Positions 46,454-64,000 of a stretch of DNA of 64,000 nt are shown piece by piece. The position numbers and the translations under genes were made by a program. The notes under the pieces are model-generated. The model worked only from the letters and a program-made list of their open reading frames with translations, made no database searches and had not been told where the DNA came from. Source of the stretch: Rhodoligotrophos appendicifer. GTDB taxonomy: Bacteria > Pseudomonadota > Alphaproteobacteria > Rhizobiales > Im1. The stretch is taken from contig NZ_VHKL01000006.1 of NCBI RefSeq assembly GCF_007474605.1, positions 124,001 through 188,000 of the forward strand, read 5' to 3'. Numbering within the stretch: position 1 is the first letter of the stretch; each line of letters begins with the position of its first letter.

Positions 46454-48468
46454 CAGAAGGTAAGCCTGACGCCGGCATATCCGCCAAAACCCAACGTGCC
46501 GTAACCCCAAACCTCATAGTATTTCTGGTCGAGAATATTCTCGAGACGGCCATAGAACTGCAGATTGTCGTTGATTTTGTAGGAACCCGCGATATTTACT
46601 AATGTATAATCCTTGAGATTTATGGTGTAACGCTCGCTGTAGTCAGCGTTATAGACCCAATCCTTCTGTTCACCATTGTAGTCAACGCCAATATTAAGCT
46701 GCGCCTTGTTGTCCAGGAACACATAATTGACGTCGAGACTGGCGATGTTTTTTGGCCGCCGCACCAATGTGTCGCCATTGGCATCCTCACCATCCGTATA
46801 GGTGTAAGACGCCCGCACCGTGAGGTTTGCCATCGGCGTGACACTGACTCCGAGCTCGACGCCATCAATCTTCGACGTGCCCGGCAGATTGATGGAGGTC
46901 TGGCCGGATCCCGTAATCAGGTCAGTGATCCGCTGGTTGAAATAGGTGAAGTCGAGTGTCCCCCAGCCGAACAGAGGCTGATCGAAGCCGGCATCCCATC
47001 CCTCGGCGGCCTCCGGCTTCAGGTCCGGATTACCGCGGTAATTGTTGGTGAACCCGTAGAGTTCGAACAGGGTCGGATTCTTGACGCCCGTTCCATACGA
47101 GCCTCGGAGCTTCGTGCCTGATGGTGCGATGACATAGGCTGCCGTCGCTCGATACGTCGTCGCATCCTTGAAGACGTCATTGTCGTCATGCCGGACACTG
47201 CCGGTAATCGACAGATCCTTGAAGAAACGCGCTTGATACTGTCCCACGAAGCCGGTTGTACCGATCGTCTCGTCGAAACTCGACCAGATGCTTTTGGAGA
47301 TCGCTCTGTCCTCGTCACGCTCGACGGCAAACGTCAGCGTATGGCTCGCATCCAGGAGTGAAGGCGTGGTGAAGAAGAGGTTGGACTGGTAATCGAGCCG
47401 GCTGCGCTCGCCGTCATAGCTGCTGGTCACCATCCGCGGATCAAGATCGCGATAGGCCCGGTTCTGATCCGTATAGGCGAACCCGGCGATCTGTTCCCAA
47501 TGACCGTCGAGGAGTACAAGTCGCGCCTGGGCGCGCGTGAAGAATTGCTCGCCCTTCACGTCCTGGAGCGAATCGACCGGTCCCGTATGGCCGTATTTTG
47601 GATAGAACATCTCCGAATCGAGATCGGTCCTGTTGGCCGTATAGCGGACCACGGCGGAGAGATCCAAAGTGTCGGTTAAACTGTAGCCGCCCTTGGCGAA
47701 GACAGTAGCGTTGCTGTAGCTGTCCTTCTCCGTGTTGCCGAGCCGAGTGCTCGCCGCGGAAATGCCCTCGGTCTGAAATCCTGATGCACTGGCGATGAAC
47801 CTGTATCGGTCGGTGCCGCCGCTCACCGAGGCGTTGCCGTCGATGGTGCCGAACGCGCCGCCTTCGACCCGCGCCGCTGTCCGCACCTGACCCTCGCCAC
47901 GCCGGATGATGATGTTGATGACGCCGCCCACGGCGTCCGAGCCATAAAGCGCACTTTGCGGCCCGCGCAGCACTTCGATGCGCTCGATGTCGTCGGCGAG
48001 CAGCTGCGCGAAGTCGAATTCGGATCCGGCTGCGGGGTCGTTCACCTCGACACCGTCGATGAAGACCTTGGTCTGGTTGCCCTCCGAGCCTCTGATCCGC
48101 ACCTGGGTGAACTGCCCCACCGGCCCGGTCCGATTGACGGCGACCCCTGGGACTTGCCGCAATGCTTCGGACACGAATTTGATCTGCTGCTCGCGAATCT
48201 CCTCACCGGTGATGATGGTGACGGCGCTCCCGACCTGTGAAAGGGGCGTCTCCACGAGATTGGCTGTCACCGAGATCTCGGGCAGGTCGACATTGCCTCC
48301 AGAGGTGAGATCGGCATCCTGCGCCTTGGCGCTGGCGATCCCGGCGAGCAACGCGGTGAGCACCACGCACACGGAGGTCCGGATGGGGACGACAGTGTTG
48401 GGTATGGGGCAGGAAGGAGTTGAAAGGCACTCCGGTGCGGAGTCCTTGCGGACGATGAGCAGGAACAT
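46453..48468 (-). CDS. btuB: TonB-dependent cobalamin receptor, BtuB-like
   Basis: 671-residue outer-membrane receptor with signal peptide (CVVLTALLAGIASAKA). A TonB-box-like EISVTA near residue 65 is followed by a plug domain (VTIITGEEIREQQ, SEALRQVPGVAVN, IRGSEGNQTKVFIDGVEVND, IEVLRGPQSALYGSDAVGGVINI). The barrel ends YAGVRLTF with terminal Phe. It imports cobalamin with TonB energy. The N-region before the signal core is unusually long (about 30 residues); a later start is possible. The cobalamin riboswitch lies upstream at 48592-48771. Confidence 0.93.
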   Translation of the reverse strand: MFLLIVRKDSAPECLSTPSCPIPNTVVPIRTSVCVVLTALLAGIASAKAQDADLTSGGNVDLPEISVTANLVETPLSQVGSAVTIITGEEIREQQIKFVSEALRQVPGVAVNRTGPVGQFTQVRIRGSEGNQTKVFIDGVEVNDPAAGSEFDFAQLLADDIERIEVLRGPQSALYGSDAVGGVINIIIRRGEGQVRTAARVEGGAFGTIDGNASVSGGTDRYRFIASASGFQTEGISAASTRLGNTEKDSYSNATVFAKGGYSLTDTLDLSAVVRYTANRTDLDSEMFYPKYGHTGPVDSLQDVKGEQFFTRAQARLVLLDGHWEQIAGFAYTDQNRAYRDLDPRMVTSSYDGERSRLDYQSNLFFTTPSLLDASHTLTFAVERDEDRAISKSIWSSFDETIGTTGFVGQYQARFFKDLSITGSVRHDDNDVFKDATTYRATAAYVIAPSGTKLRGSYGTGVKNPTLFELYGFTNNYRGNPDLKPEAAEGWDAGFDQPLFGWGTLDFTYFNQRITDLITGSGQTSINLPGTSKIDGVELGVSVTPMANLTVRASYTYTDGEDANGDTLVRRPKNIASLDVNYVFLDNKAQLNIGVDYNGEQKDWVYNADYSERYTINLKDYTLVNIAGSYKINDNLQFYGRLENILDQKYYEVWGYGTLGFGGYAGVRLTF

Positions 48469-48591
48469 GAAACCTCGAGCGGCACGCGGCCTTGTGGCAC
48501 GTCACCGCGATCGAGATATCGCCGCTTCCGGATGGAGAACGGCAGACCTACCCACCGAGACACCCCGCCCGATGTGATCGCGTGTGACCAC

Positions 48592-48771
48592 GGTTGACGG
48601 CAGGTCTCCTGACTTGCGGGTCGTTGTCGTTCCGTCGCCTTCCCAGAGCTTTTGGCTCCAGTGGCCTATGACGGACAACTCGCCGCTTACAGTTGCGGGG
48701 GCAGTCCCGGCGTTGGGGCAAGCCCCGCACCGTGTTCCCTATTGAGCCTCAAAGAGGCACCGTCACAGGCG
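48592..48771 (-). ncRNA. Cobalamin (AdoCbl-class) riboswitch
   Basis: Read on the minus strand, the 5'-3' order of conserved blocks fits the cobalamin aptamer. These are GGTGCCTC, the core CCGCAACTGTAAGCGG (48698-48683), the B12-box GGCCACTG (48666-48659), GGGAAGGC (48645-48638 region), and the closing GACCCGCAAGTCAGGAGACC (near 48623-48603). The btuB start lies about 125 bases downstream, leaving room for an expression platform. It would turn off btuBFCD and the fifth gene when cobalamin is plentiful. Confidence 0.92.
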
Positions 48772-48802
48772 ACAATGTTCGGCCGCTCTCGCTGAGTCAA
48801 TC

Positions 48803-51321: not shown

Positions 51322-51503
51322 TCGTGCGGACTGGCAAAGGTGATCCCTGACCCAATCGTTCGCCGCCTGGAGCTGACGGGCGCATAAGCCAAAATTAAGC
51401 TCAGGTCGAAACACCCCTTTGTACAATCGACTGTTGTGATATCGGCATGCCGGCGCTGCTTTGGCAGCGTCGGATCAAGGGCTGGCAGGGGGCAAGCAAC
51501 GAC

Positions 51504-52247
51504 ATGGTCAATATCCACATTCATCATTTTACCGCCAGCGGTGCAGTCGTCGATGCCGAAGCGATGGAAGTGTTTCAGGCGCAATGGACGATCTATCAGA
51601 AGCTTGTCGATAGCGACGTCCTCAGTCACCGCGCTGTCGGCCGCATTTTGCACGATCATTTGGTCGAGCGATTTTCGGCGCCCTTCTCCTTTCTCGATAT
51701 CGCCTGTGGCGACGCGAGCCTCACGAAGGCGGCGCTGTCCGGCACCCGGGTCAGCCACTATCACGGCATCGACCTCGCGGCACCGGCGATCGATCTTGCA
51801 GCGGCCAATCTTGCAAACGAGCCCTATGAGGTCGATCTCGACCATCGGGACTTCGTCGAAGCCATGGCCGATCGCCCCGCCCATGCCGATGCTGCGTGGT
51901 GCGGTCTTTCACTTCATCACTTGGTGACCGAGCAAAAGCTCGACCTCCTGCGCGAGATCCGCACTGCGATCGGCGACGGAGGTCTGTTCATGATCTATGA
52001 ACCCACTCTCGCCTCGGGCGAGACGCGCGAGGACTATCTGGCCCGGACGTATCAGATCATCAATCGCAGATGGGATGGATTGTCGTCCTCTGAACTCCAG
52101 CAGATCTGGCAGCATATTCAATCGAACGACCTGCCGGAATCACCCGAATCTTGGCTTCGCCTGGGTCGAGAGGCGGGGTTCTCGAACGCGTCCGAACTGT
52201 TTACCGATCCAACCGATCTCTACCGGATGTTCCGCTACGAGGCGTGA
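51504..52247 (+). CDS. Class I SAM-dependent methyltransferase
   Basis: 247-residue Rossmann methyltransferase with motif I FLDIACGDASLTKAAL near residue 63, an acidic post-I strand (GIDLAAPAI), and post-II AWCGLSLHHL near 133. Substrate unknown. The ATG at 51504 fits the family; a longer frame to 51447 exists, and the ribosome site AGGGGG is 12 bases away. It is convergent with the thiolase-like gene and stands alone. Confidence 0.82.
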   Translation: MVNIHIHHFTASGAVVDAEAMEVFQAQWTIYQKLVDSDVLSHRAVGRILHDHLVERFSAPFSFLDIACGDASLTKAALSGTRVSHYHGIDLAAPAIDLAAANLANEPYEVDLDHRDFVEAMADRPAHADAAWCGLSLHHLVTEQKLDLLREIRTAIGDGGLFMIYEPTLASGETREDYLARTYQIINRRWDGLSSSELQQIWQHIQSNDLPESPESWLRLGREAGFSNASELFTDPTDLYRMFRYEA

Positions 52248-52330: not shown

Positions 52331-53482
52331 TCAGGAGACCGTGGCCGCGGTTCCGAAGATCGTGGTTGCTTGATGGGAGAAATATCCGCCATTCCCGTGC
52401 GCCAGGGCAATTTCCGGTGTCCCCGGCACTTGGCGCGCACCGCCTTGTCCTCTGAGCTGAACGCAGGCTTCCAATATGGCAAAGAGGCCGAACATCCCCG
52501 GATGCACGAAGGAGAGGCCGCCGCCACCGGTGTTGACGGGCAGCCGGCCCCCGGGGCCGATTGCGCCATCGGCGACGAAAGGCCCGCCCTCGCCCTTCTC
52601 GCAGAAGCCGAGATCCTCCAGGAAGAGGATCGGCAAGATGGTGAAGGCGTCATAGAGCTCGGCAACATCGACATCCGAAGGCGAAAGGCCGGCCATCTCG
52701 AAGGCACGAGCACCGCTTTCCACAGCTCCCGTCCGCGTCAATTCCGCCATCTGCGAGATGTCCCGGTGGCTGTGGGCCATTCCTGCACCGAGCAGATAGA
52801 CGGGTGGCTGCTTCAGGTCGCGGGCACGGGCTGCCGAGGTCATCACCAGCGCGCCGCCCCCATCGGAGACGAGACAGCAATCGAGCCGCGACAGGGGATC
52901 GCTGACCATCGGCGAAGCGAGCACATCGGCAATGGTGAGGGGATCGCGTAGGGCGGCATCCGGGTTCCCCTGAGCCCACCGGCGCGCGGCGACCGCCACC
53001 TCCGCCATCTGGGATCGTGTCGTGCCATAGAGATGCATATGGCGCGCAGCCGCCATCGCATAGGCGCTCACCGGCATCGACGGCGCATAGAGAGCCTGCA
53101 GCGGATGCAGGTCGATCAATCCGTAGATGTCCCGTGAGCTGCGGGCATTGCTGCCATAGAGGATGAGAACCGTCTCGCACAGCCCGGCATCGATCGCCAA
53201 GGCCGACTGCAGCACATGCGACAAGAATGTCGATCCTCCCACCATGTCGGCATTCGACCATTTGGGGCTGATCCGCAACTGCTCGGCCATGGAGAGGGTG
53301 GGAAAGAAGTGATAGAAGGTGCTGGCGCACAGCCCGTCCACATCCTTCAGCGCAAGGCCTGCATCGGCCAAGGCGCGCTCGGCTGCCATGGCCGCAAGTT
53401 CGATCGGCGACCAGCCGGGAGAGGAGCCAAGCCCGGCATAGCCCAGGCCGACGATGGCTGTCTTGCCACGCAACGATGTCAT
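52331..53482 (-). CDS. Thiolase-fold protein without the nucleophilic cysteine (SCP2/Ltp2-like aldolase or thiolase)
   Basis: 383-residue member of the SCP-x thiolase group. The catalytic-His region GLSFVHPGMFG near residue 330 is present. The segment that holds the nucleophilic Cys in true thiolases reads MVGGSTFLSH (Ser84). The C-terminal Cys motif is replaced by GNGGYFSHQ. The Ltp2-type proteins that lack this Cys act as retro-aldolases with a DUF35 partner in steroid side-chain degradation. A DUF35 gene is directly upstream. I therefore favour a carbon-carbon cleaving aldolase, not a thiolase. Confidence 0.82.
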   Translation of the reverse strand: MTSLRGKTAIVGLGYAGLGSSPGWSPIELAAMAAERALADAGLALKDVDGLCASTFYHFFPTLSMAEQLRISPKWSNADMVGGSTFLSHVLQSALAIDAGLCETVLILYGSNARSSRDIYGLIDLHPLQALYAPSMPVSAYAMAAARHMHLYGTTRSQMAEVAVAARRWAQGNPDAALRDPLTIADVLASPMVSDPLSRLDCCLVSDGGGALVMTSAARARDLKQPPVYLLGAGMAHSHRDISQMAELTRTGAVESGARAFEMAGLSPSDVDVAELYDAFTILPILFLEDLGFCEKGEGGPFVADGAIGPGGRLPVNTGGGGLSFVHPGMFGLFAILEACVQLRGQGGARQVPGTPEIALAHGNGGYFSHQATTIFGTAATVS

Positions 53483-53492
53483 CAGCACATTC

Positions 53493-53894
53493 TCATGTCG
53501 GTTCGGGATAGAAGACGACGAGGGGTTGGTTTGTCTCGGGTGCCCATGATGGCGTCTCGATCCGGGCAACCACCGCCATGCCGATCGTGACCGCCTCTGG
53601 CGCGATCCCCAGCACCCGCGTCAGCAGTCTCGGGCCCTCCTCCAGCTCTACGATGGCGGTGTTGAAGTCCCCGCCATGTTTCGCAGGCCTGCGGACGGTG
53701 GTCGTCGCATAGACCGTGCCACGGCCGGTGACCTCGCTCCATTCCAGGTCATCGCTGGCAATCCCTTCAGTAAAGGCGCGCGGGTAATAGAGATATTCAC
53801 CCGAGCGCTTCGACCGCTGCAGCTTGAACTGGCCATTCGCAAGATGTTTGAGATAGTGATCGACCGGCCCCGGTTGATCGAAGGGGTGGTTCAT
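53493..53894 (-). CDS. DUF35 OB-fold protein lacking the zinc-ribbon cysteines
   Basis: 133-residue OB-fold DUF35 protein, partner of thiolase-like enzymes. The OB-fold part (WSEVTGRGTVYATTTV, IVELEEGPRLLTRV) is clear. The N-terminal rubredoxin-like ribbon, normally with CxxC pairs, reads LQRSKRSGEYLYYP: Cys are Ser/absent. ATG at 53894 after GAGGG. The gene is 10 bases from the thiolase-like gene and 31 from the ligase gene, so the pair forms a likely complex. Confidence 0.85.
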   Translation of the reverse strand: MNHPFDQPGPVDHYLKHLANGQFKLQRSKRSGEYLYYPRAFTEGIASDDLEWSEVTGRGTVYATTTVRRPAKHGGDFNTAIVELEEGPRLLTRVLGIAPEAVTIGMAVVARIETPSWAPETNQPLVVFYPEPT

Positions 53895-53925
53895 CGAAGG
53901 GCCCTCACTGCAGTTTTTTGGAGCA

Positions 53926-55500
53926 TTATCCCGGCTCCTCCTCGGCACCGGCGGCCTCGGTCCGAGCGGTCATCGTCTCGATGATGGCGCGCTTCAGGAT
54001 CTTGCCTGTGGCACCTTTCGGAAGGTCCGCCCAGATCTCGATGTTCTTCGGGATCTTGAAGTTGGCGATCTTGTCCTTGCAGAAGGCTTTGAGGTCCTCG
54101 GGATCCACCGACTGCTGAGGCTTGAGCGAGACGACGGCCTCGATGCGATCGCCCCAGACCGGGTCGGGCACGCCGAACACCGACACTTCGTGCACGGCCG
54201 CATGCTCCGCCAGCACGTTCTCGATCTCGGTTGGGAACACGTTATATCCGCCCGACTTCATCCTGAACTTGGCGCGATCGGAAAGGTAGACATACCCCTC
54301 CTCATCGGCACGGGCCAGATCGCCGGTCCGCATCCAGTCTCCGAGGAACATTTCGGCAGTCTTCTCCGGCGCGTTCCAATAACCCGGAAACGCCACGTCG
54401 CTGCGAACGATCAATTCGCCGATCTCGCCCGGCGCGACATCCTGATCATCCTCGTCCACGATGCGCGTATCGACATAGGAGAGCGGCCGCCCGATCGATG
54501 CCAGCAGCTCTGGACGGCTCGTCAGGCCCCGCTGATGGTCCGAGGGAAACAACATATTCGTCATGCCCAGCAGCTCTGTCGTTCCATACATCTGTAGGAA
54601 CGGGCAGCCGAAGGTGCGCATGGCCTCCCTGATGGTGGCCGGTGGCAGGGGTGAGGCGCCGTAGCCGAGCAGCTTCATCGACGAGACATCCGCCTTGCCG
54701 ATATTGTCGACGGTGAGCAGGGCCGCGAGCATCGTCGGCACCAGCACGCAATTCGTCGCCCGCTCGCGAGTGATCAGCGTGAGCGCCCGCTCGGCGTTCC
54801 ATGGGCCGACGATGACGCATGTGGCGGCCAGGAAGATGTTGCGCAGCATGTGCATCATCGGCACGCCGGCAGCCGGCATGGCCTGCAGCCAGACGGTGTC
54901 GTGCACCAGCCCCTCATTCATCGCGGTATAGAGAATGGTGCGCAGGAACTTGTCATGGGGATAGATCGCGCCTTTCGGCAGGCCCGTCGATCCCGAGGTA
55001 TAGGCGATCATGACGGTAGCGGCGGGGCTCTGCTCCAGCCTCCCCGTCTTGGGGAAGCGCGCGATCAGATCGTCGTAATCATGCGAGGCAGAATGATTGG
55101 CTGCAAAGCCGATCAGCGTGGGCGAGAGCGGCAGCCTGTCTAGATCGGGTTGGATCAGGCTGACGACCCTCTGGTGCTCGCCTGCATAGATCAGAATGCG
55201 GGGCTGGCAATCCTTGATGATCGAGGCGATTTCCGCAGCCGCCAGCCTGGCATTGACGCCCACCCGGATCGCGCCGATCTTGGCGCAAGCCAGGAACGTC
55301 TCGGCAACCTCGATGCAGTCATTCGACAGGACGGCGACGCGGTCGCCGCTCTGGACTCCGAGCGCACGGAGACCATGGCCGATGGCATCAGTGCGCCGGT
55401 CGACCTCTCCCCAAGTCACCCGCCGATCCAGTTCGACGAACGCATCCTTGTTCGGCCAGTGCGCCCCATTGCGGCGCACCAAATCCCCAAACGTCATCAT
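53926..55500 (-). CDS. Acyl-CoA synthetase / AMP-dependent ligase
   Basis: 524-residue adenylate-forming ligase that would activate an acid to a CoA thioester. P-loop YTSGSTGLPKGA near residue 170, MYGTTE near 305, DWMRTGDLA and SGGYNVFPTEIENVL near 400-430, and the C-terminal catalytic Lys in KGATGKILKR near 505 are present. A second ATG at 55497 is equally good. It sits between the luciferase-like and DUF35 genes on the same strand; the product is presumably cleaved by the thiolase-like enzyme. Confidence 0.92.
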   Translation of the reverse strand: MMTFGDLVRRNGAHWPNKDAFVELDRRVTWGEVDRRTDAIGHGLRALGVQSGDRVAVLSNDCIEVAETFLACAKIGAIRVGVNARLAAAEIASIIKDCQPRILIYAGEHQRVVSLIQPDLDRLPLSPTLIGFAANHSASHDYDDLIARFPKTGRLEQSPAATVMIAYTSGSTGLPKGAIYPHDKFLRTILYTAMNEGLVHDTVWLQAMPAAGVPMMHMLRNIFLAATCVIVGPWNAERALTLITRERATNCVLVPTMLAALLTVDNIGKADVSSMKLLGYGASPLPPATIREAMRTFGCPFLQMYGTTELLGMTNMLFPSDHQRGLTSRPELLASIGRPLSYVDTRIVDEDDQDVAPGEIGELIVRSDVAFPGYWNAPEKTAEMFLGDWMRTGDLARADEEGYVYLSDRAKFRMKSGGYNVFPTEIENVLAEHAAVHEVSVFGVPDPVWGDRIEAVVSLKPQQSVDPEDLKAFCKDKIANFKIPKNIEIWADLPKGATGKILKRAIIETMTARTEAAGAEEEPG

Positions 55501-55527
55501 CCCGGCTGCCCCTCGGACTCAAGCGCT

Positions 55528-56646
55528 CTAAAGCTTCATCGCCGCATCTGCGAATTCCCGTAGCATTGCCATCTCGACCTCCTGGGGGAAATAGCCGACA
55601 TGGTGCCAGAGGAAGAATTCATCCACATTGTAGAGCTCTTTCATCCGCCCGATATCGTCCTGCACCGCCTGCTTGCTGCCCCCCCAAAGGCGCCCCACCG
55701 GAACATTGTAAGGCGGTGCATTATAGGCGTAGTTGAACAGCTCCATGAAGCCCTGCTCGATGTCCTTGGTCTCGGCAGGGTTGCGTCCGAGGGTGAGATG
55801 GCCGCCGATCGCCAGCGCGTCATTATTTGTTGACTGACGCCCGACGCGCCCCGCCTCTTTGGCGTATTCCTCCAGCACGATGGGCATGAAGCGCTCGTTC
55901 TCGTTCGAGACGAAGGACACCATCTTGCCGCCTTCCCGCGCCCAGAACCGTACCGTCTCCATGCTGTTGCTGAAGGGTGCATAGACCGGCGGATGCGGAT
56001 CCTGGAATGGCCGTGGCACGATGCCGACCTCCATCAACGTTTTGTCTTCGGCGATCGCATGCGCGCCGAAATCTTCCGTCGGCGCGAAGCGCCACTCGGT
56101 GGGGTATGGCACCTTCCAGAACTCGCCGTCGATGCGGGTCGTCGGCTGCGTCCAAAGCTGCTTCACGATCTTCCAGTTTTCATAGAACACCGCGCGATTG
56201 CGGGCGTCCGCAGCGGACCGATCGGAATGGGTCGATGTCACGTTGATGTGCTGGCCGAACGTCGCGGTCCATCGGGGCGTGTTGCCGCGCGAAAACCCTG
56301 CAAAGACGCGGCCGTCGGTGAAGTGGTCGAGCAAGGCGATGTCTTCGGCGAGCTGGATCGGATTGACCACCGTCAGGTTCATTCCGAGTTGGCCGACGCG
56401 CATCTTCTTGGTGTGCTGGGCAACGAAATAATCCCAGAACAAAGGGTTCGTCGTGGGCTCGATGCCTTCGACCTGCATGTGCTGCTCGGTCATGCAGAAC
56501 CCATCATAGCCGAGCGACTCCGCGTACTGCATCTGCTCGCGAAGCTGGTTCATGAAAATGCGAAACCGCCCCTTGTCCGAGCCGGCCAGTTGCACCCGCT
56601 CGCCGCGGCCGATGAGGTAGGGAATGACGAGAATAACGAAGCGCAT
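55528..56646 (-). CDS. LLM-class flavin-dependent oxidoreductase (luciferase-like monooxygenase)
   Basis: 372-residue TIM-barrel flavoprotein. Family motifs are AESLGYDGFCMTEQHM near residue 43, GMNLTVVNPIQLAEDIALLDHFTDGRVFAGFSRG near 88-120, and TRIDGEFWKVP. It would use reduced FMN from a separate reductase to oxygenate a substrate. Paired with a RidA gene and an amidase it recalls the Rut pyrimidine pathway (RutA, RutC), but RutB, RutD and RutF relatives are not evident, so a different N-heterocycle or amide is likely. Confidence 0.9.
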   Translation of the reverse strand: MRFVILVIPYLIGRGERVQLAGSDKGRFRIFMNQLREQMQYAESLGYDGFCMTEQHMQVEGIEPTTNPLFWDYFVAQHTKKMRVGQLGMNLTVVNPIQLAEDIALLDHFTDGRVFAGFSRGNTPRWTATFGQHINVTSTHSDRSAADARNRAVFYENWKIVKQLWTQPTTRIDGEFWKVPYPTEWRFAPTEDFGAHAIAEDKTLMEVGIVPRPFQDPHPPVYAPFSNSMETVRFWAREGGKMVSFVSNENERFMPIVLEEYAKEAGRVGRQSTNNDALAIGGHLTLGRNPAETKDIEQGFMELFNYAYNAPPYNVPVGRLWGGSKQAVQDDIGRMKELYNVDEFFLWHHVGYFPQEVEMAMLREFADAAMKL

Positions 56647-56660
56647 GGGAAAAACCTCAG

Positions 56661-57068
56661 CTACTGAACCACTGCGAAAGCATCGATTTCGACGAGGGCA
56701 TTGGGATCAAACAGCATTTGCACCTGCAGCATCGTCATGGGGGGATAGTGCTTTCCCAAAATCTTGAGCCACGCCTCGCGAATGGCAGGCCCGCCCTCTT
56801 TGAAGGCCTGCATGTCGCGGACATAGGCACGCATCATGGCGATATCTTCCGGCTGTCCCCCGGCTGCTGCAACGACCGTGGCGACGTTCTTGAGACAGAG
56901 TTCAAACTGCTCGGTGAAGGACAGGCCGGGCTCCACCTCGATGCTGCCGCCCACCGTCGCAAGCTGGCCCGCCACGGTGACGAGCCTGCCCTGTGATGCT
57001 GACATGCCCCAAGAGAATCCAGGGGGGCGCTTCCAGCCTTCCGGCTGAATCACGCGAAGATGCGACAT
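56661..57068 (-). CDS. RidA (YjgF/YER057c/UK114) family protein
   Basis: 135-residue RidA-fold trimer-forming protein. Strand and loop patterns GRLVTVAGQLAT, FTEQFELCLKNVATVVAAAG, MMRAYVRDM and MTMLQVQMLFDPNALVEIDAFAV are typical. Known members deaminate reactive imines or enamines or hydrolyse aminoacrylates (RutC). The canonical Arg near the active site reads FDPNALVEI, so activity may differ. ATG at 57068 after GGGAGGG. It is 14 bases from the LLM gene. Confidence 0.9.
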   Translation of the reverse strand: MSHLRVIQPEGWKRPPGFSWGMSASQGRLVTVAGQLATVGGSIEVEPGLSFTEQFELCLKNVATVVAAAGGQPEDIAMMRAYVRDMQAFKEGGPAIREAWLKILGKHYPPMTMLQVQMLFDPNALVEIDAFAVVQ

Positions 57069-57179
57069 TGCGGCCCTCCCTGGCGCCACTTCCGAGGCTC
57101 ACCAATTATTTGTTGGACGTTCAGCAATTTACACGGCATGGCGCGGAATGCAATCGTCCCTTTCCTTCGATGGGCCAGC

Positions 57180-57845
57180 TCAGCCTTTGGGCTTTGACAG
57201 GGATGAGGGAGATCCGAGAAGGAGGTCGAGCATGCCATGGCAGGCCTTCTCGGCGTTTTCCTTGCTGACGGCGACCGGGTCGGCCACCCACCCGATCCAG
57301 AACCCTTCGATCATTTGCGAGAACAGCATCGCAGCCAGATCCGCATCGATCTCCAGGTTTCTGTCGGCAGCTGCCCGCGTCATCAACCCGGCGATGCCGG
57401 ACCGGTAGCTTCGCCACAATTCACGATAGAGGGCGGCGAGAGGCGGCGACCATTTGGCGCTTCCGGCAAGCGCGGTCCAGACGGCGGCCTTGTCGGGCGT
57501 GAAACCGGGCGGCGAGAAACTGGATCTGACGACGGCGTGGAGCCGATCATAGGGATCCCGACCTGCTGCTCGCACGGCTTGTCGCGTTGCCTCCGCGAGC
57601 TCGGATGTGAAGACGGAGATGGCCTCCAGGACCAGATCGTCCTTTCCTTTGAAGTAGTGACCGATCAGGCCTCGTGAAAATCCCGCCTCATCGCAGATCA
57701 TTGCGACGGTCACGGCGGCGTATCCCTTCTCCGCGATCGATCGGATCGCGGCCTCCTGCAACTCGCGGCGCCGTTCGATGGCGATGGCTGAAGGCTTCTC
57801 CCGCTGCCTGGGCCGCCTGCGCGTTTCGCTCGGAACGGATGTCAT
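57180..57845 (-). CDS. TetR/AcrR family regulator, BetI-like
   Basis: 221-residue repressor. The HTH near residues 26-72 (ELQEAAIRSIAEKGYAAVTV, MICDEAGFSRGLIGHYFKGKDDLV) is followed by a BetI-type C-terminal domain with WSPPLAALYRELWRSYRSG and GFWIGWVADPVAVSKENA. BetI relatives sense small osmolyte-like ligands; here it probably controls the import and degradation genes on either side, since it sits inside their array. ATG at 57845 after GGGGAGA. A 111-base gap downstream, with CCAA-N7-TTGG, may be its operator. Confidence 0.9.
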   Translation of the reverse strand: MTSVPSETRRRPRQREKPSAIAIERRRELQEAAIRSIAEKGYAAVTVAMICDEAGFSRGLIGHYFKGKDDLVLEAISVFTSELAEATRQAVRAAGRDPYDRLHAVVRSSFSPPGFTPDKAAVWTALAGSAKWSPPLAALYRELWRSYRSGIAGLMTRAAADRNLEIDADLAAMLFSQMIEGFWIGWVADPVAVSKENAEKACHGMLDLLLGSPSSLSKPKG

Positions 57846-57870
57846 CCGCTGTCTCCCCTTTGGCACCTTG

Positions 57871-59274
57871 TCAGATCTGTCCGGCAGGAATGTCCGGTGG
57901 ACTCGCAAACGCTCCCGTGAGCCTCTCATAGGCCCTCGACAGCTGCAGCACACCCACATCATCAAAACGGCGCCCGACGATCTGCATTCCGACGGGAGAG
58001 CCGCCAGGCGTGAATCCGCACGGGACCGAACTCGCCGGCTGTTCCGTCAGATTGAACAGAAAACAATTCGCCCATGGCTCGAACAGCGCCTGTGGATCAG
58101 GCGCGGGACTGTCGGCTGAATAGGACGGGCGGTGCACGGTGGGCAGGACGAGGAAATCGATATCGTCGAACAGCCGCATCGTCAGTTCACGCATTCTCCG
58201 CATAGCAACCATGGCGGTGAACAGCGCGGCGGCACTTTCGCCGGAAATGGTGGCCGTCCACTGGTCGATGACGCTCGCCGCCTTGCGTCGATCATCGGGA
58301 AACGTCGAAAACTCGCTATAGCATCGTGTCTTGTAATAGAGCTCGGCCTGAGCAAGATCATCGGCGGTGAATGCGAGCTCCACGGGAACCAGATCGCAGC
58401 CGAGCGCCGTGAAACGCTCCGCCGCCGCCAGCGTGAGGGCGACGACGTCTGCATCCGGCTTCAATCCGAAATCAAATCCCGTCAACACCCCGATCCGTTT
58501 GGCTCCGACCGGCGCATCGAGCTCTGCGCAGTAATCGATGGGGCTGAACGCGAGGGCGGTGAAGTCGCGCGGATCCGGCCGCGTCACGACATTCATGAGA
58601 AGCGCGGCATCCTCGACGCTTCGTGTCAGCGGGCCAGCCGCCAAAGCGGGATCATTGGGCGGATAATAGGGCACCCGACCCTGGCTGGGCTTCAGCCCGA
58701 ACAGCCCGCAAAACGACGCTGGCAGGCGGATGGAGCCGACGATGTCCGTACCGATGGCCACGGTGTTCAGGCCCGCCGCAACCGCCACCGCGGCTCCTGA
58801 ACTCGATCCTCCGGGATTGAGGCTCAGTCTCCAGGGATTGCGGGTGATGCCATGCTTCGAGCTGTAACCGGAGGCGAGAATTCCGAAGTCCGGCATGGTC
58901 GTCTTTCCCAGCAGGACAACCCCCGCCTCCCGCAGATGCGCGATGGCAGGGGCATCGCTGTCCCATCGTCCCGTTTCGGCCGAATGCGCCAGGGAACCTC
59001 GATAGGCGGGCCACCCGATCGCGGGGAGTGCATCCTTGACCGAAGTTGCAACACCATCCAGGGGACTGAGCGGCTGCCCTTCCCGCCAGCGCTGCTCCGA
59101 CAGCCGCGCCTGACGTAATGCCCCTTCGTGATCGACCAGATAAAACGCGTTGAGAGCGGGATTGAGCGCCTCGATCCGCTGAAGCATGGCGCCGATCACC
59201 TCGACGGGCGACAGCGCTCCGCTGGCATAGGCGCGGCCGAGCGCGGCAATGCCCATGGCGTGTACAGCTTGCAT
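57871..59274 (-). CDS. Amidase signature family amidohydrolase
   Basis: 467-residue amidase-signature enzyme. Catalytic triad Ser-cisSer-Lys is visible: Lys in TSVKDAL near residue 80, the Ser stretch NPGGSSSGAAV near 154-160 and the nucleophile in TDIVGSIRLPASFCG near 180. It would hydrolyse an aliphatic or cyclic amide. Start is 3 bases from the GST-like gene stop. It fits a pathway where an N-containing ring is opened and deaminated; substrate unknown. Confidence 0.92.
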   Translation of the reverse strand: MQAVHAMGIAALGRAYASGALSPVEVIGAMLQRIEALNPALNAFYLVDHEGALRQARLSEQRWREGQPLSPLDGVATSVKDALPAIGWPAYRGSLAHSAETGRWDSDAPAIAHLREAGVVLLGKTTMPDFGILASGYSSKHGITRNPWRLSLNPGGSSSGAAVAVAAGLNTVAIGTDIVGSIRLPASFCGLFGLKPSQGRVPYYPPNDPALAAGPLTRSVEDAALLMNVVTRPDPRDFTALAFSPIDYCAELDAPVGAKRIGVLTGFDFGLKPDADVVALTLAAAERFTALGCDLVPVELAFTADDLAQAELYYKTRCYSEFSTFPDDRRKAASVIDQWTATISGESAAALFTAMVAMRRMRELTMRLFDDIDFLVLPTVHRPSYSADSPAPDPQALFEPWANCFLFNLTEQPASSVPCGFTPGGSPVGMQIVGRRFDDVGVLQLSRAYERLTGAFASPPDIPAGQI

Positions 59275-59277
59275 TTC

Positions 59278-59892
59278 CTAGCCACTCGTCGCCGGAGCAG
59301 TCCGGGTCGGTGCCGTGGCAACGACGCTTGGCCTCTCGGCATACGCGGCCGACCAGGCCGCCGCCTTGGGATACTGCTCCCGCCACTCCGTCCCATACCG
59401 AAAGTCGACATAGCCCATCGCACAGATGGCTGCGATATCATCGGCCAAGAGTGTGGAGTCCTGCGGATCCCTCTCGGCAAGCAGATGGTCGAGCGCTGCC
59501 AGCGCATGATCGATGCGGCTTTCGAGCTTGGCGATAAAAGCCGGGCTCTGCTCGTTCTGTGGCCGCCGCACCTCCATCACCCGCAGCAGCACCGATTCCA
59601 TCAATCCGTCACAGAGCGAGACCCGCGTCATGACTGACCATTTGCGATCATCCGGGAAAAGCGCGGCCCCCTGATGTTGGGTGTCGAGATAGGTCATGAT
59701 TGTCATGCTGTCGAACAGCGCGGACCCGTCGTCCAGGACCAGGACGGGGATTTGCCGCAGCGGATTGGCCTTCGCCAAAGCCTCCGAACTCGCCAGGACG
59801 ACGAACTCCTCGCTCAGAGGAATCGACCGCTCGATGGCCGCCATCATCACCTTGCGCCCAAAGGGCGACGTCGCATCGTTCAGCAGGCGCAT
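59278..59892 (-). CDS. Glutathione S-transferase-like protein
   Basis: 204-residue GST: thioredoxin-like N-terminus with TSPFGRKVMMAAIE and the glutathione-binding NPLRQIPVLVLDDGSALFDSMTIM near residues 42-66, then an all-alpha C-terminal half. The active-site position carries Ser/Pro-Phe rather than a Cys or Tyr. Maleylacetoacetate-isomerase-type or dehalogenase activity is possible. It lies between livF and the amidase gene, an unusual insert in a Liv-type operon, suggesting a catabolic isomerase or lyase role. Confidence 0.88.
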   Translation of the reverse strand: MRLLNDATSPFGRKVMMAAIERSIPLSEEFVVLASSEALAKANPLRQIPVLVLDDGSALFDSMTIMTYLDTQHQGAALFPDDRKWSVMTRVSLCDGLMESVLLRVMEVRRPQNEQSPAFIAKLESRIDHALAALDHLLAERDPQDSTLLADDIAAICAMGYVDFRYGTEWREQYPKAAAWSAAYAERPSVVATAPTRTAPATSG

Positions 59893-59925
59893 GTTTTACT
59901 ACCCTTCATTTCGCATCCCTGGCAC

Positions 59926-60699
59926 CTAGCGCGGGGACCGCGCTGCGACCGCCTCGGCATCGTTTGCCTCGCCGCCCTCAATCGATGCGCCGAGATAGGC
60001 TTCTTCCACAAGAGGGTTGCACAGCAGATCGCGGCTCGGCCCCGAGAGGACGATATCCCCGGTTTCAAGCACATATCCGAAATCCGACGCATGCAATGCG
60101 GCGCGCGCATTCTGCTCCACGAGCAGAATCGATACGCCGGATTGGCGCAGAGTCGCAATGATGCGGAACACTTCCGCCACGATGAGAGGGGCGAGCCCGA
60201 GGCTCGGCTCGTCCAGCATCAGCAGCCGCGGCCGCGACATCAGCGCCCGGCCGATCGCCAGCATCTGCCGTTCGCCTCCCGAAAGCGTTCCCGCCTCCTG
60301 ACTGCGACGCTCCTTCAATCTTGGAAACTGTGCATAGACCTTCTCGATGTCCTCCCGCGCCTGTGAGCGGCCGTGCCGGCGCTGCACATAGGCGCCGAGG
60401 AGGAGGTTGTCTTCGACCGACATCGTACCGAACAGCTCGCGGCCCTCGGCCACGAGGCACATGCCACGCTCGAGGCGTTCCTCGACCGATAGCTGGTCCA
60501 CCCTCCTGCCTTCGAAGGTGATTGCTCCTCGGCTGGGATGCAGGCCCATCAGACTGTTGAGCAATGTGCTTTTGCCGGCGCCGTTCGGCCCGATCACGGT
60601 CACGACCCCACCCTCTGCGATGGTCAGGTCGATATCCCGGACGGCGGAAATCTTTCCATAGCTGCCCGTCAGCCCGGCGACGGTGAACAACTCACTCAT
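59926..60699 (-). CDS. livF: Branched-chain amino acid/amide-type ABC ATPase, LivF-like
   Basis: 257-residue ATPase with Walker A GPNGAGKST, signature LSGGERQM, Walker B LLMLDEP and LLVEQNARAAL near residue 190, the LivF mark. It starts with an ATGA overlap with the LivM-LivG fusion gene. Together with it, LivH and the binding protein it forms a Liv-type importer for an amide, amino acid or aromatic. Confidence 0.92.
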   Translation of the reverse strand: MSELFTVAGLTGSYGKISAVRDIDLTIAEGGVVTVIGPNGAGKSTLLNSLMGLHPSRGAITFEGRRVDQLSVEERLERGMCLVAEGRELFGTMSVEDNLLLGAYVQRRHGRSQAREDIEKVYAQFPRLKERRSQEAGTLSGGERQMLAIGRALMSRPRLLMLDEPSLGLAPLIVAEVFRIIATLRQSGVSILLVEQNARAALHASDFGYVLETGDIVLSGPSRDLLCNPLVEEAYLGASIEGGEANDAEAVAARSPR

Positions 60700-62471
60700 G
60701 GGGCGCTCACCCCCAGATAGGCTTCGAGCACTTTCGGGTCGCGCCGGATCTGCTGCGGTGCGCCCTGTGCCAGCTTGTTTCCGAAGTTGAGGACGACGAC
60801 ATCGTCGGCGATTTCCATGACGAAGCGCATGTCGTGTTCGACCAGCAGGATGCTCATGCCTCCCGCGCGGAGCTGCTTGAGCAAACTGGCCAGATCGTTC
60901 TTCTCATTATGCCTGAGCCCGGCGGCCGGCTCGTCCAGCAGCAGCAGGTCCGGGGCGGCGCACAGGGCCCGTGCGATCTCGACGAGCCGCTGCTGACCAA
61001 GGGCGAGATTGCCGGCCGGCTCATCGATCATCGCCGCAAGGCCCACACGGCCGATCTGCCGTTCGGCCTCCTTGCGCAGCGCATCCTCCACCGCTTGCCT
61101 GATCCCGAAGGCCGCGGCGAGCGGCCCCCTGCGGCTCCGCCCATGCGCACCGAACATCACATTCTCGAGCACCGAGCGGTCCGGCACCAGCCGCACATGC
61201 TGGTAGCTCCTGGAGAGCCCCCGATGGACGAGTTCATGTGCCGGCAATTGGTCGACCCGTTCGCCCCGCAGCCAGACTTCGCCGCCATCTGTAGCCAGGC
61301 ACCGGGTGAGCACGTTGAACAATGTGCTCTTCCCCGCACCATTGGGCCCAATCACGGCGACGATCTGGCCTGGACCGACCTCGAAGGACACATCATTGAC
61401 GGCCACGAGACCGCCGAACCGCTTGCCCACCCCCTTCACCGCCAGCAACGTTCCGCTGGTCATGGCGGGGCGCACGATGGGCTCCAGCGATGCGTCCTCG
61501 GCAGCGGCGGGCTTGCGAAACCGAGGCAGGCGTTCCAGCAGGACCCCGAATCCCTTGTCTCTGTTGAGCTGGAGCAGAAGGATGATGAGCGCTCCGAAGG
61601 CGATGATCTCGAAATTGCCGCTGCGCCCGAGGATCGCCGGCAGGACGTCCTGCAGGCTTTCGCGCAGGATCACGATCACGGCGCTGCCGAGAACCGCTCC
61701 CCACACATAACCCGCGCCGCCGACGACGGCCATGAACAGGTATTCGATGCTCATGGTGATACCGAAAGGCGCTGGATTGACGAAGCGCAGCAGATGGGCA
61801 TAGAGCCAACCGGAGATCGATGCCAGAAGCGCTGCATAGACGAACACGGCCAACTTGACCCGGCTGCCGTTGACGCCGAAATTCTCGGCCATCTCGGCAT
61901 CTTTTTTGAGCGCCCGCATCGCCCGCCCCGGCCGTGAATCCAGGAGGTTTTGGGTCAATAGCAGGGCGACGAGCACGACGAACCAGATCAGGTAGAACAT
62001 GCTGCGGCCGGAATCGAGAACGGTCCCGAACACGGAGATTGCCGGAATGCCGGTCATGCCGGTCTGACCACCGAGTTCGGCCATGTTCCCGAACACGTAA
62101 TAGAGGCTCATGCTCCAGCAGATCGTGCCCAAAGGCAGATAATGGCCGGAGAGCCTGAGCGTGATGCCGCCGAGCACCAGGGCGGCGAGCAGATTGACCA
62201 CGAGGCCGGCCCCGAGGCCAACCCAGGGCGAGAGCCCGAAATTCACCGTGAGGACGGCGGTCGTATAGGCCCCGATGCCCACGAAGGCGGCTTGCCCGAA
62301 GGAGGTAATGCCTGACACGCCGGTGAGCAGCACTAGCCCCAGGGCCACCAGGGCATAGAGACCGATATAGTTCAGCAGGGTGATGTAAAATTCCGAGAAG
62401 ACTTGCCCGCCCAGAAGGCAGGCAAGCAAAATGGCGGCCCACAGCAGGATACGGCCCGAACGCCCACTCAT
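60696..62471 (-). CDS. LivM-LivG fusion: permease joined to ABC ATPase
   Basis: 591-residue two-domain protein. Residues 1-320 form a LivM permease with nine to ten helices (GVSGITSFGQAAFVGIGAY near 50, the EAA-like LDSRPGRAMRALKKDAEMAENFGV near 180). After a linker with KPAAAEDAS, residues 345-591 are a LivG ATPase with Walker A GPNGAGKST near 375, LALGQQRLVEIARAL as signature and LLLDEP. Fusions of LivM and LivG occur in several proteobacteria. The stop overlaps livF; the start overlaps LivH. Confidence 0.93.
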   Translation of the reverse strand: MSGRSGRILLWAAILLACLLGGQVFSEFYITLLNYIGLYALVALGLVLLTGVSGITSFGQAAFVGIGAYTTAVLTVNFGLSPWVGLGAGLVVNLLAALVLGGITLRLSGHYLPLGTICWSMSLYYVFGNMAELGGQTGMTGIPAISVFGTVLDSGRSMFYLIWFVVLVALLLTQNLLDSRPGRAMRALKKDAEMAENFGVNGSRVKLAVFVYAALLASISGWLYAHLLRFVNPAPFGITMSIEYLFMAVVGGAGYVWGAVLGSAVIVILRESLQDVLPAILGRSGNFEIIAFGALIILLLQLNRDKGFGVLLERLPRFRKPAAAEDASLEPIVRPAMTSGTLLAVKGVGKRFGGLVAVNDVSFEVGPGQIVAVIGPNGAGKSTLFNVLTRCLATDGGEVWLRGERVDQLPAHELVHRGLSRSYQHVRLVPDRSVLENVMFGAHGRSRRGPLAAAFGIRQAVEDALRKEAERQIGRVGLAAMIDEPAGNLALGQQRLVEIARALCAAPDLLLLDEPAAGLRHNEKNDLASLLKQLRAGGMSILLVEHDMRFVMEIADDVVVLNFGNKLAQGAPQQIRRDPKVLEAYLGVSAP

Positions 62472-63505
62472 TCGGCTTCACCCCTGGACGGATGCGTCAC
62501 CGACAGGACCAGCAGGATCGGCAGGATCAGGCCGAACAGCAGCGCTTCCTTGAACGCGCTCGCCCAGAAGGAGGAGAAGGCCTCGATCAGGCCGACCAGG
62601 ATCGCACCGAGAGCACCGACCGGATAGCTCACAAGCGCACCGATGATCGCGCCGATGAAGCCTTTGAGGGCGATGAGCAGGCCGGTATCGTAATAGATGG
62701 TGGTGATGGACGAGATCAGGATGCCCGAGATCGCGCCCACCAGTGCGGCGAGAGTGAAGCAGAGGGTACCGGCAACCTCTGGCCTGATGCCCACCAGACG
62801 TGCACCGACGCTGTTGACGGCGGTGGCGCGCAGGGCCTTGCCGCGGAGCGTGAAGGTAAATCCCCAGAAAAGAACGGCGATGAGCACGATGCTGGCCGCT
62901 ATGGCGGTCAGGCTCTGTCCTGTGATCATCATCGTGCCGAAGGTGAAGGTCGCATCGATCAGCGGCTGCGTGCGGGCACCCTCCGGTCCGAAGGCGAGCA
63001 GCCCGACGCCCATGAGCAGCAGGTGCAGCGCGACTGCGGCAATCATCAGCACCAGCACGCTGGCATTGGCCATGGGCTGGAACACGATGCGATAGAGGAT
63101 GGCGCCGAAGGGCACGACGATTGCAAGCGTGACCACGACCTGCATCCACACGGCGTCTGGTGCGCCCGTCACCCAGAACAGGATGGCGGCGAGGCAACTC
63201 GGATAGAGAGCGAACAGGGCGGCGGTCGTCATCGCGCGGCGGCGGTGCGGTGTCCGGATCCCGGTCCAGAGCTCGATGGCCGCGGCCATCCATCCCGTGA
63301 TCACCAGGAAGGTGACCACCCCCGGCACAGCCCCCTGCTGGAGGGCGGCCATGGTGAGTGCGCCATAGGTCACGAACTCTCCCTGCGGCACGAACACGAC
63401 CCGGGTGACGGTGAAAACCAGGATCAGGGCAAGGGCGAGCAGCGCATAGATGGCCCCGTTGACGAGGCCATCCTGCGCGAGGAGCAAGGCGATTTCCGTA
63501 GTCAA
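62468..63505 (-). CDS. livH: Liv-type ABC permease, LivH-like
   Basis: 345-residue permease with about eight to nine helices: DGLVNGAIYALLALALILVF near residue 12, GEFVTYGALTMAAL near 42, and the EAA-like TLRGKALRATAVNSVGARLVGI near 215. It is longer than typical LivH (about 300), with an extra region near residues 75-130 that includes WTGIRTPHRRRAM and adds a hydrophobic pair. Starts with TTG (63505). The stop overlaps the LivM-LivG start. Confidence 0.9.
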   Translation of the reverse strand: MTTEIALLLAQDGLVNGAIYALLALALILVFTVTRVVFVPQGEFVTYGALTMAALQQGAVPGVVTFLVITGWMAAAIELWTGIRTPHRRRAMTTAALFALYPSCLAAILFWVTGAPDAVWMQVVVTLAIVVPFGAILYRIVFQPMANASVLVLMIAAVALHLLLMGVGLLAFGPEGARTQPLIDATFTFGTMMITGQSLTAIAASIVLIAVLFWGFTFTLRGKALRATAVNSVGARLVGIRPEVAGTLCFTLAALVGAISGILISSITTIYYDTGLLIALKGFIGAIIGALVSYPVGALGAILVGLIEAFSSFWASAFKEALLFGLILPILLVLSVTHPSRGEAE

Positions 63506-63557
63506 GGCACGACTGTCCCCGTTTCAGCCTTGGGCTGCATGATCGCCAGGTCTCGAC

Positions 63558-64000
63558 TCAGTTGGGAAGATAGGTCCACTTCCCGTCTTTGACCTGGATC
63601 AGGACCAACGACTCCGGAGTGAAGCCCGTATGGTCCTTCGGTGTCAAAGTCACCGGTCCGGAAGTCGTGACGACCGCCTTGCTGTTCTGCAGGGCATCGT
63701 TGAGGGCGGCACGGAACTCCGGCGTCCCCGGCTTCGCCTTCTCCAGGGCGACGGGTATGGCCGCCTGAGCGAGGAGGAAACCGTCCCAGGCGAAACCCGG
63801 AAAGGCCGAGATGCTGTTGGCGCCATTGGCGTCGTTATAGGCTTTTGCGAATTCGGTCGCCGCAGCCTTTGCAATGTTTGACTCCGGCAGCTGGTCGGCG
63901 ACGATCAGCGGTCCGGTGGCAATGATGGCGCCTTCCACGGCCTTACCGCCGACACGCAGGAAGTCGTTGGTCGTCACGCCCGTGGTCTGGTAGATCGCAC
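63558..64000 (-). CDS. Liv-type ABC substrate-binding protein, C-terminal part (cut by window edge)
   Basis: Only the last about 147 residues are in the window. The visible end has FAWDGFLLAQAAIPVALEKAKPGTPEFRAALNDALQ and closes VLIQVKDGKWTYLPN, typical of branched-chain/amide binding proteins. The frame stays open to the right edge, so the apparent GTG at 63977 is not the real start. It leads the importer operon, followed by livH after 52 bases. Confidence 0.9.
   Translation of the reverse strand, partial: AIYQTTGVTTNDFLRVGGKAVEGAIIATGPLIVADQLPESNIAKAAATEFAKAYNDANGANSISAFPGFAWDGFLLAQAAIPVALEKAKPGTPEFRAALNDALQNSKAVVTTSGPVTLTPKDHTGFTPESLVLIQVKDGKWTYLPN

Follow-up and report, generated by a model that had tools for sequence, protein, structure and literature searches.

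Luciferase-like monooxygenases (LLMs) take part in several catabolic systems, among them the Rut system, in which RutA is the LLM, RutC the Rid-family protein and RutB the hydrolase, and the pathways for pyridine and trigonelline, in which a two-component LLM is followed by amide hydrolysis and a semialdehyde dehydrogenase. To our knowledge, the pyridine and trigonelline pathways include no Liv importer, CoA ligase or thiolase-DUF35 pair. Thiolase relatives that work with a DUF35 partner can be aldolases, as described in PMC12329534 for Ltp2 (motif YDHF plus Tyr344) and Sal (motif YDCY, with Cys304 essential). Here we describe a gene cluster of Rhodoligotrophos appendicifer, at positions 52331-64000 of a 64,000-nucleotide stretch of contig NZ_VHKL01000006.1 (the whole stretch is called the window below), in which an LLM gene stands among genes for a Liv-type importer, an amidase, a CoA ligase and a thiolase-DUF35 pair.

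Building on the gene set, its conservation, the motif changes in its enzymes and the operator-like sites shared by its segments, we interpret the cluster as an inducible catabolic regulon that would run from an importer through LLM oxygenation, amide hydrolysis and CoA activation to a retro-aldol-type cleavage, a reading to which we give roughly even confidence. The enzyme families are known ones and the thiolase-DUF35 pair is unusual; our searches of the open-licence literature found no published description of such a cluster. An initial annotation, made from the DNA alone, did not recognise the combination.

Gene content and conservation of the cluster

Scanning the cluster with Pfam and NCBIfam, we assigned families to 12 closely spaced minus-strand genes, which in order of transcription encode LivK, LivH, a LivM-LivG fusion, LivF, a glutathione S-transferase (GST), an amidase, a TetR-family regulator, a RidA-like protein, the LLM, a CoA ligase, a DUF35 protein and a thiolase-like protein. 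All of the types named in the initial annotation were thereby recovered, including the internal TetR gene, which is counted among the twelve together with the partial LivK gene. The importer genes comprise LivK (solute-binding protein, C-terminal part at 63558..64000, the gene running on past the window end into L071, which continues the contig, as far as a likely ATG at window coordinate 64712), the LivH-type permease (62468..63505), the LivM permease fused to the LivG ATPase (60696..62471) and the LivF-type ATPase (59926..60699). With likely starts, the largest intergenic gap is the 111 bp between TetR and RidA.

The grouping recurs outside this genome. In a metagenome-assembled genome (MAG; locus L009) we found 11 of the 12 genes in the same order, only the GST being without a counterpart, and a plasmid search with the amidase led to pAA04, a predicted conjugative plasmid of Aminobacter aminovorans KCTC 2477, which carries the same 11 genes rearranged with the segments still together and adjoined by genes for a flavin reductase, an NTF2-like protein and a succinate-semialdehyde dehydrogenase (SSADH). 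Because eleven genes recur, ordered in L009 and rearranged on pAA04, the grouping exceeds chance and, judged by gene content, the cluster is a conserved unit recurring in both places. This synteny, together with the shared predicted operator described below, backs the earlier view of a single catabolic cluster, and the genome neighbourhood comparison that had been proposed as its check yielded, besides these eleven genes, a five-gene core (LLM, amidase, CoA ligase, DUF35, thiolase) in Pseudohalocynthiibacter aestuariivivens (L037), arranged as LLM-RibB-flavin reductase-NTF2-like-amidase-CoA ligase-DUF35-thiolase and followed by a TRAP transporter. Our open-licence literature search found no function in print for the L009 or pAA04 clusters, and the accessible part of PMC8235418 mentions neither pAA04 nor a luciferase.

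To place these clusters in a wider distribution, we scanned a genome collection with the LLM and compared the neighbours of the resulting 32 loci within the available stretch (some loci were short), reporting gene matches above 60 bits. The five-gene core appeared in 2 of the 32 (L009 and L037), and a related CoA ligase (53-75% identity) in all seven alphaproteobacterial loci and in none of the other 25. Within the order of L037, five of 292 genomes have an LLM at E 1e-120 or better; the four besides L037 all carry TetR, LLM, RibB, an NTF2-like gene, a related amidase and beta-oxidation genes, with a different CoA ligase (29% identity) and, in two of the four, a DUF35-thiolase pair within the stretch (family scans covered L108 and L109, and the assignments for the others follow by similarity). 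Two Acetobacteraceae MAGs (G780 and G781) hold an LLM-CoA ligase pair plus a DUF35-thiolase pair elsewhere in the genome, and are the only LLM-matching genomes among the 150 searched in the family of G780; in the order of the L009 genome, the LLM was found only in that genome (1 of 18). Among 101 genomes of the window's relatives, two of the same genus gave best LLM matches of 31-32%, only the window's own genome matched at E 1e-60 among 397 of its order, and eight of 385 in its class matched at 1e-50, of which only G111 and G167 exceed 45% identity besides its own genome; G167 carries the LLM-CoA ligase pair. Presence is thus patchy, given the low same-genus matches and the single match in the order, and together with the plasmid copy this would fit horizontal transfer.

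A predicted operator common to both segments

By comparing upstream regions we found a near-palindrome with the consensus TTTGTTGNNNGTNCAACAAA. One copy in the window genome lies beyond the window at 64801-64820, between LivK and a divergent hydrolase gene (0 mismatches), and a second at 57109-57128, in the TetR-RidA gap, where it reads ATTGCTGAACGTCCAACAAA on the minus strand (2 mismatches). L009 has counterparts of both, before LivK and before RidA; on pAA04 one copy precedes RidA and another separates the flavin reductase gene from the NTF2-like gene, which diverge from each other. The distance from the RidA copy to the gene is 40 bp in the window, 39 bp in L009 and 39 bp on pAA04. The LivK copy of L009 likewise has a divergent 4HBT thioesterase gene on its far side, and the product of that gene is 52% identical to the window-side thioesterase over 128 residues. 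Across the window genome (5,593,515 bases) three sites occur at no more than 2 mismatches, two of them at the cluster, and a reversed-pattern control gave none (the tool output counts each palindrome on both strands). Dinucleotide shuffles reached the observed count in 0 of 100 cases for the window, L009 and L072 each and in 1 of 200 for L071.

Since the importer and RidA segments carry the same operator-like site, and two of the three genome sites lie here, both segments and the divergent hydrolase and thioesterase genes look like one predicted regulon of the TetR protein encoded within the cluster (57180..57845; open reading frame to 57965, likely ATG 57845). This regulator has a TetR_C_6 (BetI-type) C-terminal domain and scores 102.8 bits against the BetI choline regulator (NCBIfam TIGR03384), below the cut-off of 201.3. 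The two divergent plus-strand genes beyond the window, encoding an alpha/beta hydrolase (64862-65701, likely TTG start 64862; in L071 from 1862) and a 4HBT-type thioesterase (65698-66126; in L071 to 3126), overlap by four bases and are possible further members of the regulon; a TctC-type receptor gene comes after them.

In 13 loci we also searched the 400 bp that precede the LLM for the operator. In L011, which has the LLM-CoA ligase pair, one copy lies about 260 bp before the LLM, and 9376-9960 holds the remnant of a TetR homologue that tblastn shows interrupted by in-frame stops and a gap. This is either a decayed gene or a MAG assembly error, the operator-like site having been kept. The best matches in L010, L012, L013, L014, L018, L027, L034 and L035 have 6-8 mismatches, and no relative of the window TetR was seen above 60 bits in these eight loci either. 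L037 and L106-L108, which have another TetR type, reach 4-7 mismatches and carry a different palindrome of their own.

Thiolase-like protein and DUF35 partner

The last gene of the cluster (52331..53482; open reading frame to 53569 from TTG, likely ATG 53482) encodes a thiolase-like protein of the NCBIfam PRK06158 subfamily (NF004811; 562.5 bits against a cut-off of 421). Aligned to 6ok1, it and its counterparts have GGS at the site of the nucleophilic Cys and the motifs YDAF and HPG, invariant in eight of eight sequences. All eight therefore combine the Tyr of YDxF with absence of the nucleophilic Cys, as Ltp2 does; the His of YDHF and Tyr344 of Ltp2 find no match, their places being taken by Ala and the HPG His, and the essential Cys of Sal's YDCY is Ala throughout. 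The score against BbsB (NCBIfam NF053628) is 135.7 bits, far from the cut-off of 750. Just upstream, the DUF35 partner (OB_ChsH2_C; 53493..53894, open reading frame to 53948, likely start 53894) is one of eight compared, all of which lack the full set of four zinc Cys: the ribbon segment contains a single Cys in L096 and in L097 and none in the other six. On these motifs, the thiolase-like protein is likely a carbon-carbon lyase of retro-aldol type.

Monooxygenase, CoA ligase and amidase

The LLM (55528..56646), followed in the operon by an AMP-forming acyl-CoA ligase (53926..55500), is probably dependent on reduced flavin mononucleotide (FMNH2), according to its family matches, an alignment with 23 relatives (57-88% identity to the window protein) and an AlphaFold2 model (mean pLDDT 77.6; below 50 at residues 55-66, 122-142, 187-198 and 202-208). 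The closest folds to this model are RslO1 (Z 30.5), luciferase (Z 29.5) and 3,6-diketocamphane monooxygenase (Z 27.3), with RutA below all of these (Z 23.7, 12% identity), and there was no RutA entry among 12 NCBIfam matches. Distant relatives (30-33%) in plasmid regions (L119-L121) have ribB within about 5 kb in all three annotated cases, and a lactonase- or metallo-beta-lactamase (MBL)-type gene directly after the LLM in two of them; a fourth such region carries no annotation. These contexts support FMN use and leave a Baeyer-Villiger role, weighed below, standing. RibB next to LLM genes is more simply read as flavin supply, and we rejected riboflavin catabolism, considered on account of the RibB and lumazine-binding-like genes beside LLM genes, there being no mention of CoA or thiolase in the accessible part of PMC12746152. 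The auxin iad pathway was likewise set aside: the accessible part of PMC12633357 has a Rieske-type enzyme and does not mention thiolase, DUF35 or CoA ligase.

In 12 of the 32 loci (L013, L024-L031, L033, L036 and L038), mostly from Acidobacteriota-type MAGs and in one case from a gammaproteobacterial MAG, a gene of the same LLM subfamily follows a Rieske-type oxygenase gene, whose match ends 3-27 bp short of the LLM. The LLM-amidase operon of L107, L108 and L110 has, next to it and divergent from it, hydantoinase A/B-like, aminotransferase and Amdase/racemase-like genes (identified by Pfam in L108, with similar genes in the other two), which hint at a cyclic amide substrate in these three loci.

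The amidase-signature hydrolase (57871..59274; PF01425) scores 463.8 bits against NCBIfam PRK07042 (NF005450), above the cut-off of 458, with the L108 amidase just under it at 447.3 bits. It is 46-62% identical to the amidases of the other seven clusters; all eight carry the loop GTDIVGSIR, which reads GSDMGGSVR in the one genome paralogue compared, and all eight have in place Lys-Ser-Ser residues that we take to be the motif of the family. Because the hydrolase linked to the LLM is an amidase here, and lactonase-type beside two distant LLMs, an amide product of this LLM is suggested. The LLM, amide-hydrolase gene, CoA ligase and thiolase/DUF35 pair lacking the nucleophilic Cys, on which the initial annotation had built its pathway, are all present.

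Accessory proteins and surroundings

The RidA-like protein (Ribonuc_L-PSP; 56661..57068, open reading frame to 57089, likely ATG 57068) lacks the canonical Arg: Met stands at the position of the Arg of 2dyy, 1xrg and 6l8p, as it does in L009 and pAA04, and its two best PDB matches, 5v4f and 3i7t, are also without that Arg. It scores 24.1 bits against RutC (NCBIfam TIGR03610, cut-off 169.1) and, for the Rid family in general, 40.3 bits where the cut-off is 106.25. Among PDB entries, the divergent alpha/beta hydrolase is matched best by the putative esterase 2pbl (E 3e-45) and third by the kynurenine formamidase 4e11 (E 4e-23), and it stays below a lipase-family cut-off (241.9 against 320), so that it could serve either of the two substrate readings weighed below; it has no match in L009, pAA04, L037 or L011.

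LivK has 3sg0 and 4dqd as its nearest PDB entries, presumably aromatic-acid binders of Rhodopseudomonas; a search of the open-licence literature found no paper for codes 3SG0, 4DQD, 3UKJ or 4JB2. The GST (59278..59892, YibF-like) was part of the combination first proposed, and the gene is indeed present; as a core member we rejected it, there being no counterpart in L009, L037 or pAA04 at reporting level (above 60 bits in L009 and L037), and by this distribution it is probably accessory. A GST gene does lie about 4 kb away from the pAA04 cluster, but it is unlike that of the window, which it matches over 54 residues only (E 0.024).

The thiolase-like end of the cluster adjoins a convergent plus-strand methyltransferase gene (51447-52247), and the cluster does not stand out in base composition. 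Neither a terminator-like site on the minus strand nor a promoter-like site turned up in a consensus scan of the cluster; with counts of 2 and 0, where shuffles averaged 6.6 and 2.0, this is weak evidence. Elsewhere in the window, a cobalamin riboswitch (48582-48779, minus strand; Rfam RF00174, 135 bits) lies just upstream of a TonB-dependent receptor gene (46453-48468, minus strand).

Proposed pathway

In the pathway we propose, the TetR repressor from within the cluster would bind the two predicted operator copies and jointly control the Liv importer-GST-amidase-TetR segment, the RidA-LLM-CoA ligase-DUF35-thiolase segment and the divergent hydrolase and thioesterase genes. Taken up by the importer, a small carboxylate or amide of cyclic or aromatic structure would be oxygenated by the LLM with FMNH2 from a reductase encoded elsewhere in the genome, where we found 11 flavin reductase candidates. 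The oxygenated product would be hydrolysed by the amidase, with the RidA-like protein possibly acting on an enamine or imine. The resulting acid would then be activated by the CoA ligase, and the Cys-less thiolase and zinc-ribbon-less DUF35 would split a carbon-carbon bond, most likely by a retro-aldol reaction in which a beta-hydroxyacyl-CoA yields an acyl-CoA and a carbonyl compound; on pAA04, oxidation of an aldehyde may follow. Repressor binding, the order of the steps, ring opening and the nitrogen content of the substrate are what we infer here.

Several observations weigh against this proposal. Of the 32 loci, within the stretches available, five have only the LLM and CoA ligase beyond the two with the core, and 25 have neither core nor CoA ligase; the LLM genes that follow Rieske oxygenase genes may mean that LLM chemistry is broader. 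L010, L012 and L035 have no operator in the 400 bp before the LLM despite their LLM-CoA ligase pair. The third genome site (G000:C18:40361-40380; L126 6362-6381) precedes an ABC solute-binding gene that has enoyl-CoA hydratase genes in its vicinity; it may be due to chance or mark a further regulon member. A flavin reductase gene belongs to the L037 and pAA04 clusters and is missing from the window cluster. An enamine step is not universal, since RidA was not found in L037 or in four other loci of its order, and aldolase activity is not assured, because YDAF differs from both the YDHF plus Tyr344 of Ltp2 and the YDCY of Sal.

Competing explanations

Two rivals to this proposal differ in what the LLM oxygenates; both are tentative, and we hold each with less confidence than the proposal itself. 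The substrate may be an N-heteroaromatic or pyridinium acid that the LLM opens to an N-acyl or N-formyl enamide, which the amidase turns into an enamine from which the RidA-like protein releases ammonia before CoA ligation and cleavage, a logic like that of the pyridine, trigonelline and Rut pathways. The joint presence of LLM and related amidase in eight clusters of three gene orders argues for such a route, as do RidA in three of the eight, the SSADH and flavin reductase genes beside the pAA04 cluster next to its second operator, the kynurenine formamidase among the matches of the divergent hydrolase, the presumed aromatic-acid binders nearest LivK and the hydantoinase-like genes adjoining the LLM operon in L107, L108 and L110; yet RutA is one of many fold matches of the LLM model, the canonical Rid Arg is absent, five of the eight clusters have no RidA, and the divergent hydrolase matches a putative esterase best. 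Alternatively, the LLM may belong to the type II Baeyer-Villiger monooxygenases and oxidise a cyclic ketone or keto acid; opening of the resulting ester or lactone would then fall to the amidase or to the divergent hydrolase, or else the substrate may be amide-conjugated. Here the fold near 3,6-diketocamphane monooxygenase, the distant relatives near ribB and, in two of three annotated regions, directly before a lactonase/MBL-type gene, and the esterase-like divergent hydrolase all fit, and an LLM that carries out Baeyer-Villiger oxidation of progesterone is described in PMC12239570 (the likeness is by description only), but the hydrolase accompanying the LLM in all eight clusters is an amidase, three clusters include the RidA-like protein, and the lactonase-type contexts belong to distant relatives.

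It is improbable, in our estimate, that the locus consists of two or three unrelated adjoining operons (importer-GST-amidase; RidA-LLM-CoA ligase-DUF35-thiolase). That L010, L011 (with its TetR remnant), L012, L035 and L039 have LLM and CoA ligase without other cluster genes nearby, within the stretch examined, and that L037 has a TRAP transporter in place of Liv, would fit separate units; however, pAA04 keeps the reordered segments together, and both segments carry the same operator-like site. Unrelated operons had been named at the outset as what would overturn a common cluster, and at the DNA level this predicted site, common to both segments, speaks against them.

A more specific form of the regulon proposal, somewhat less probable to us than either substrate reading, is a mobile TetR-controlled route, not yet described, in which the LLM opens an N-ring, the GTDIVGSIR amidase and the Arg-less Rid remove nitrogen, and a new thiolase-fold lyase (YDAF and HPG, with a zinc-ribbon-less DUF35), itself also undescribed, cleaves the CoA product. 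If confirmed, a pathway would be assigned to a conserved, partly plasmid-borne gene set, and an unexplored branch of thiolase-fold carbon-carbon lyases, whose DUF35 partner has lost its zinc ribbon, would come into view. MAGs of Acidimicrobiia and Acidobacteriota also contain the LLM branch. Two direct handles on the substrate are the predicted operator, through its inducer, and the solute-binding protein, through its ligand.

Comparison with known systems

Like Rut, the cluster brings together an LLM, an amide-cleaving enzyme and a protein of the Rid family, which is the part of the initially proposed Rut-like opening that stands. Its Rid protein, however, is far below the RutC cut-off and lacks the Arg, its LLM, by fold and family matches, does not look specifically RutA-like, no RutB-type Pfam family occurs among the twelve genes, and it adds a CoA ligase and a thiolase-DUF35 pair. 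We rejected Rut membership because the Rid protein lacks the Arg and scores low against RutC and because no RutB-type gene is present: the cluster is not a Rut system and at most resembles one in combining an LLM with a Rid-family protein and an amide hydrolase, ring opening of an N-heterocycle being possible.

With the steroid side-chain aldolases Ltp2-ChsH2 and Sal-Shy the cluster shares a Cys-less thiolase fold, the Tyr of YDxF and a DUF35 partner; it differs in having YDAF and the HPG His rather than YDHF plus Tyr344 or YDCY, in a short, free-standing DUF35 that has lost the zinc ribbon (Cys4 or Cys3His), and in having no MaoC hydratase. The benzoylsuccinyl-CoA thiolase BbsAB likewise pairs a thiolase with DUF35, and its aligned HDAF and HPxG resemble YDAF and HPG, whereas the first His of HDAF is Tyr in the cluster, and the cluster DUF35 is without zinc Cys. 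The clusters of pAA04 and L009 are homologous to that of the window: pAA04 differs in gene order and has extra flavin reductase, NTF2-like and SSADH genes, and both have eleven genes and the predicted operator in common with it.

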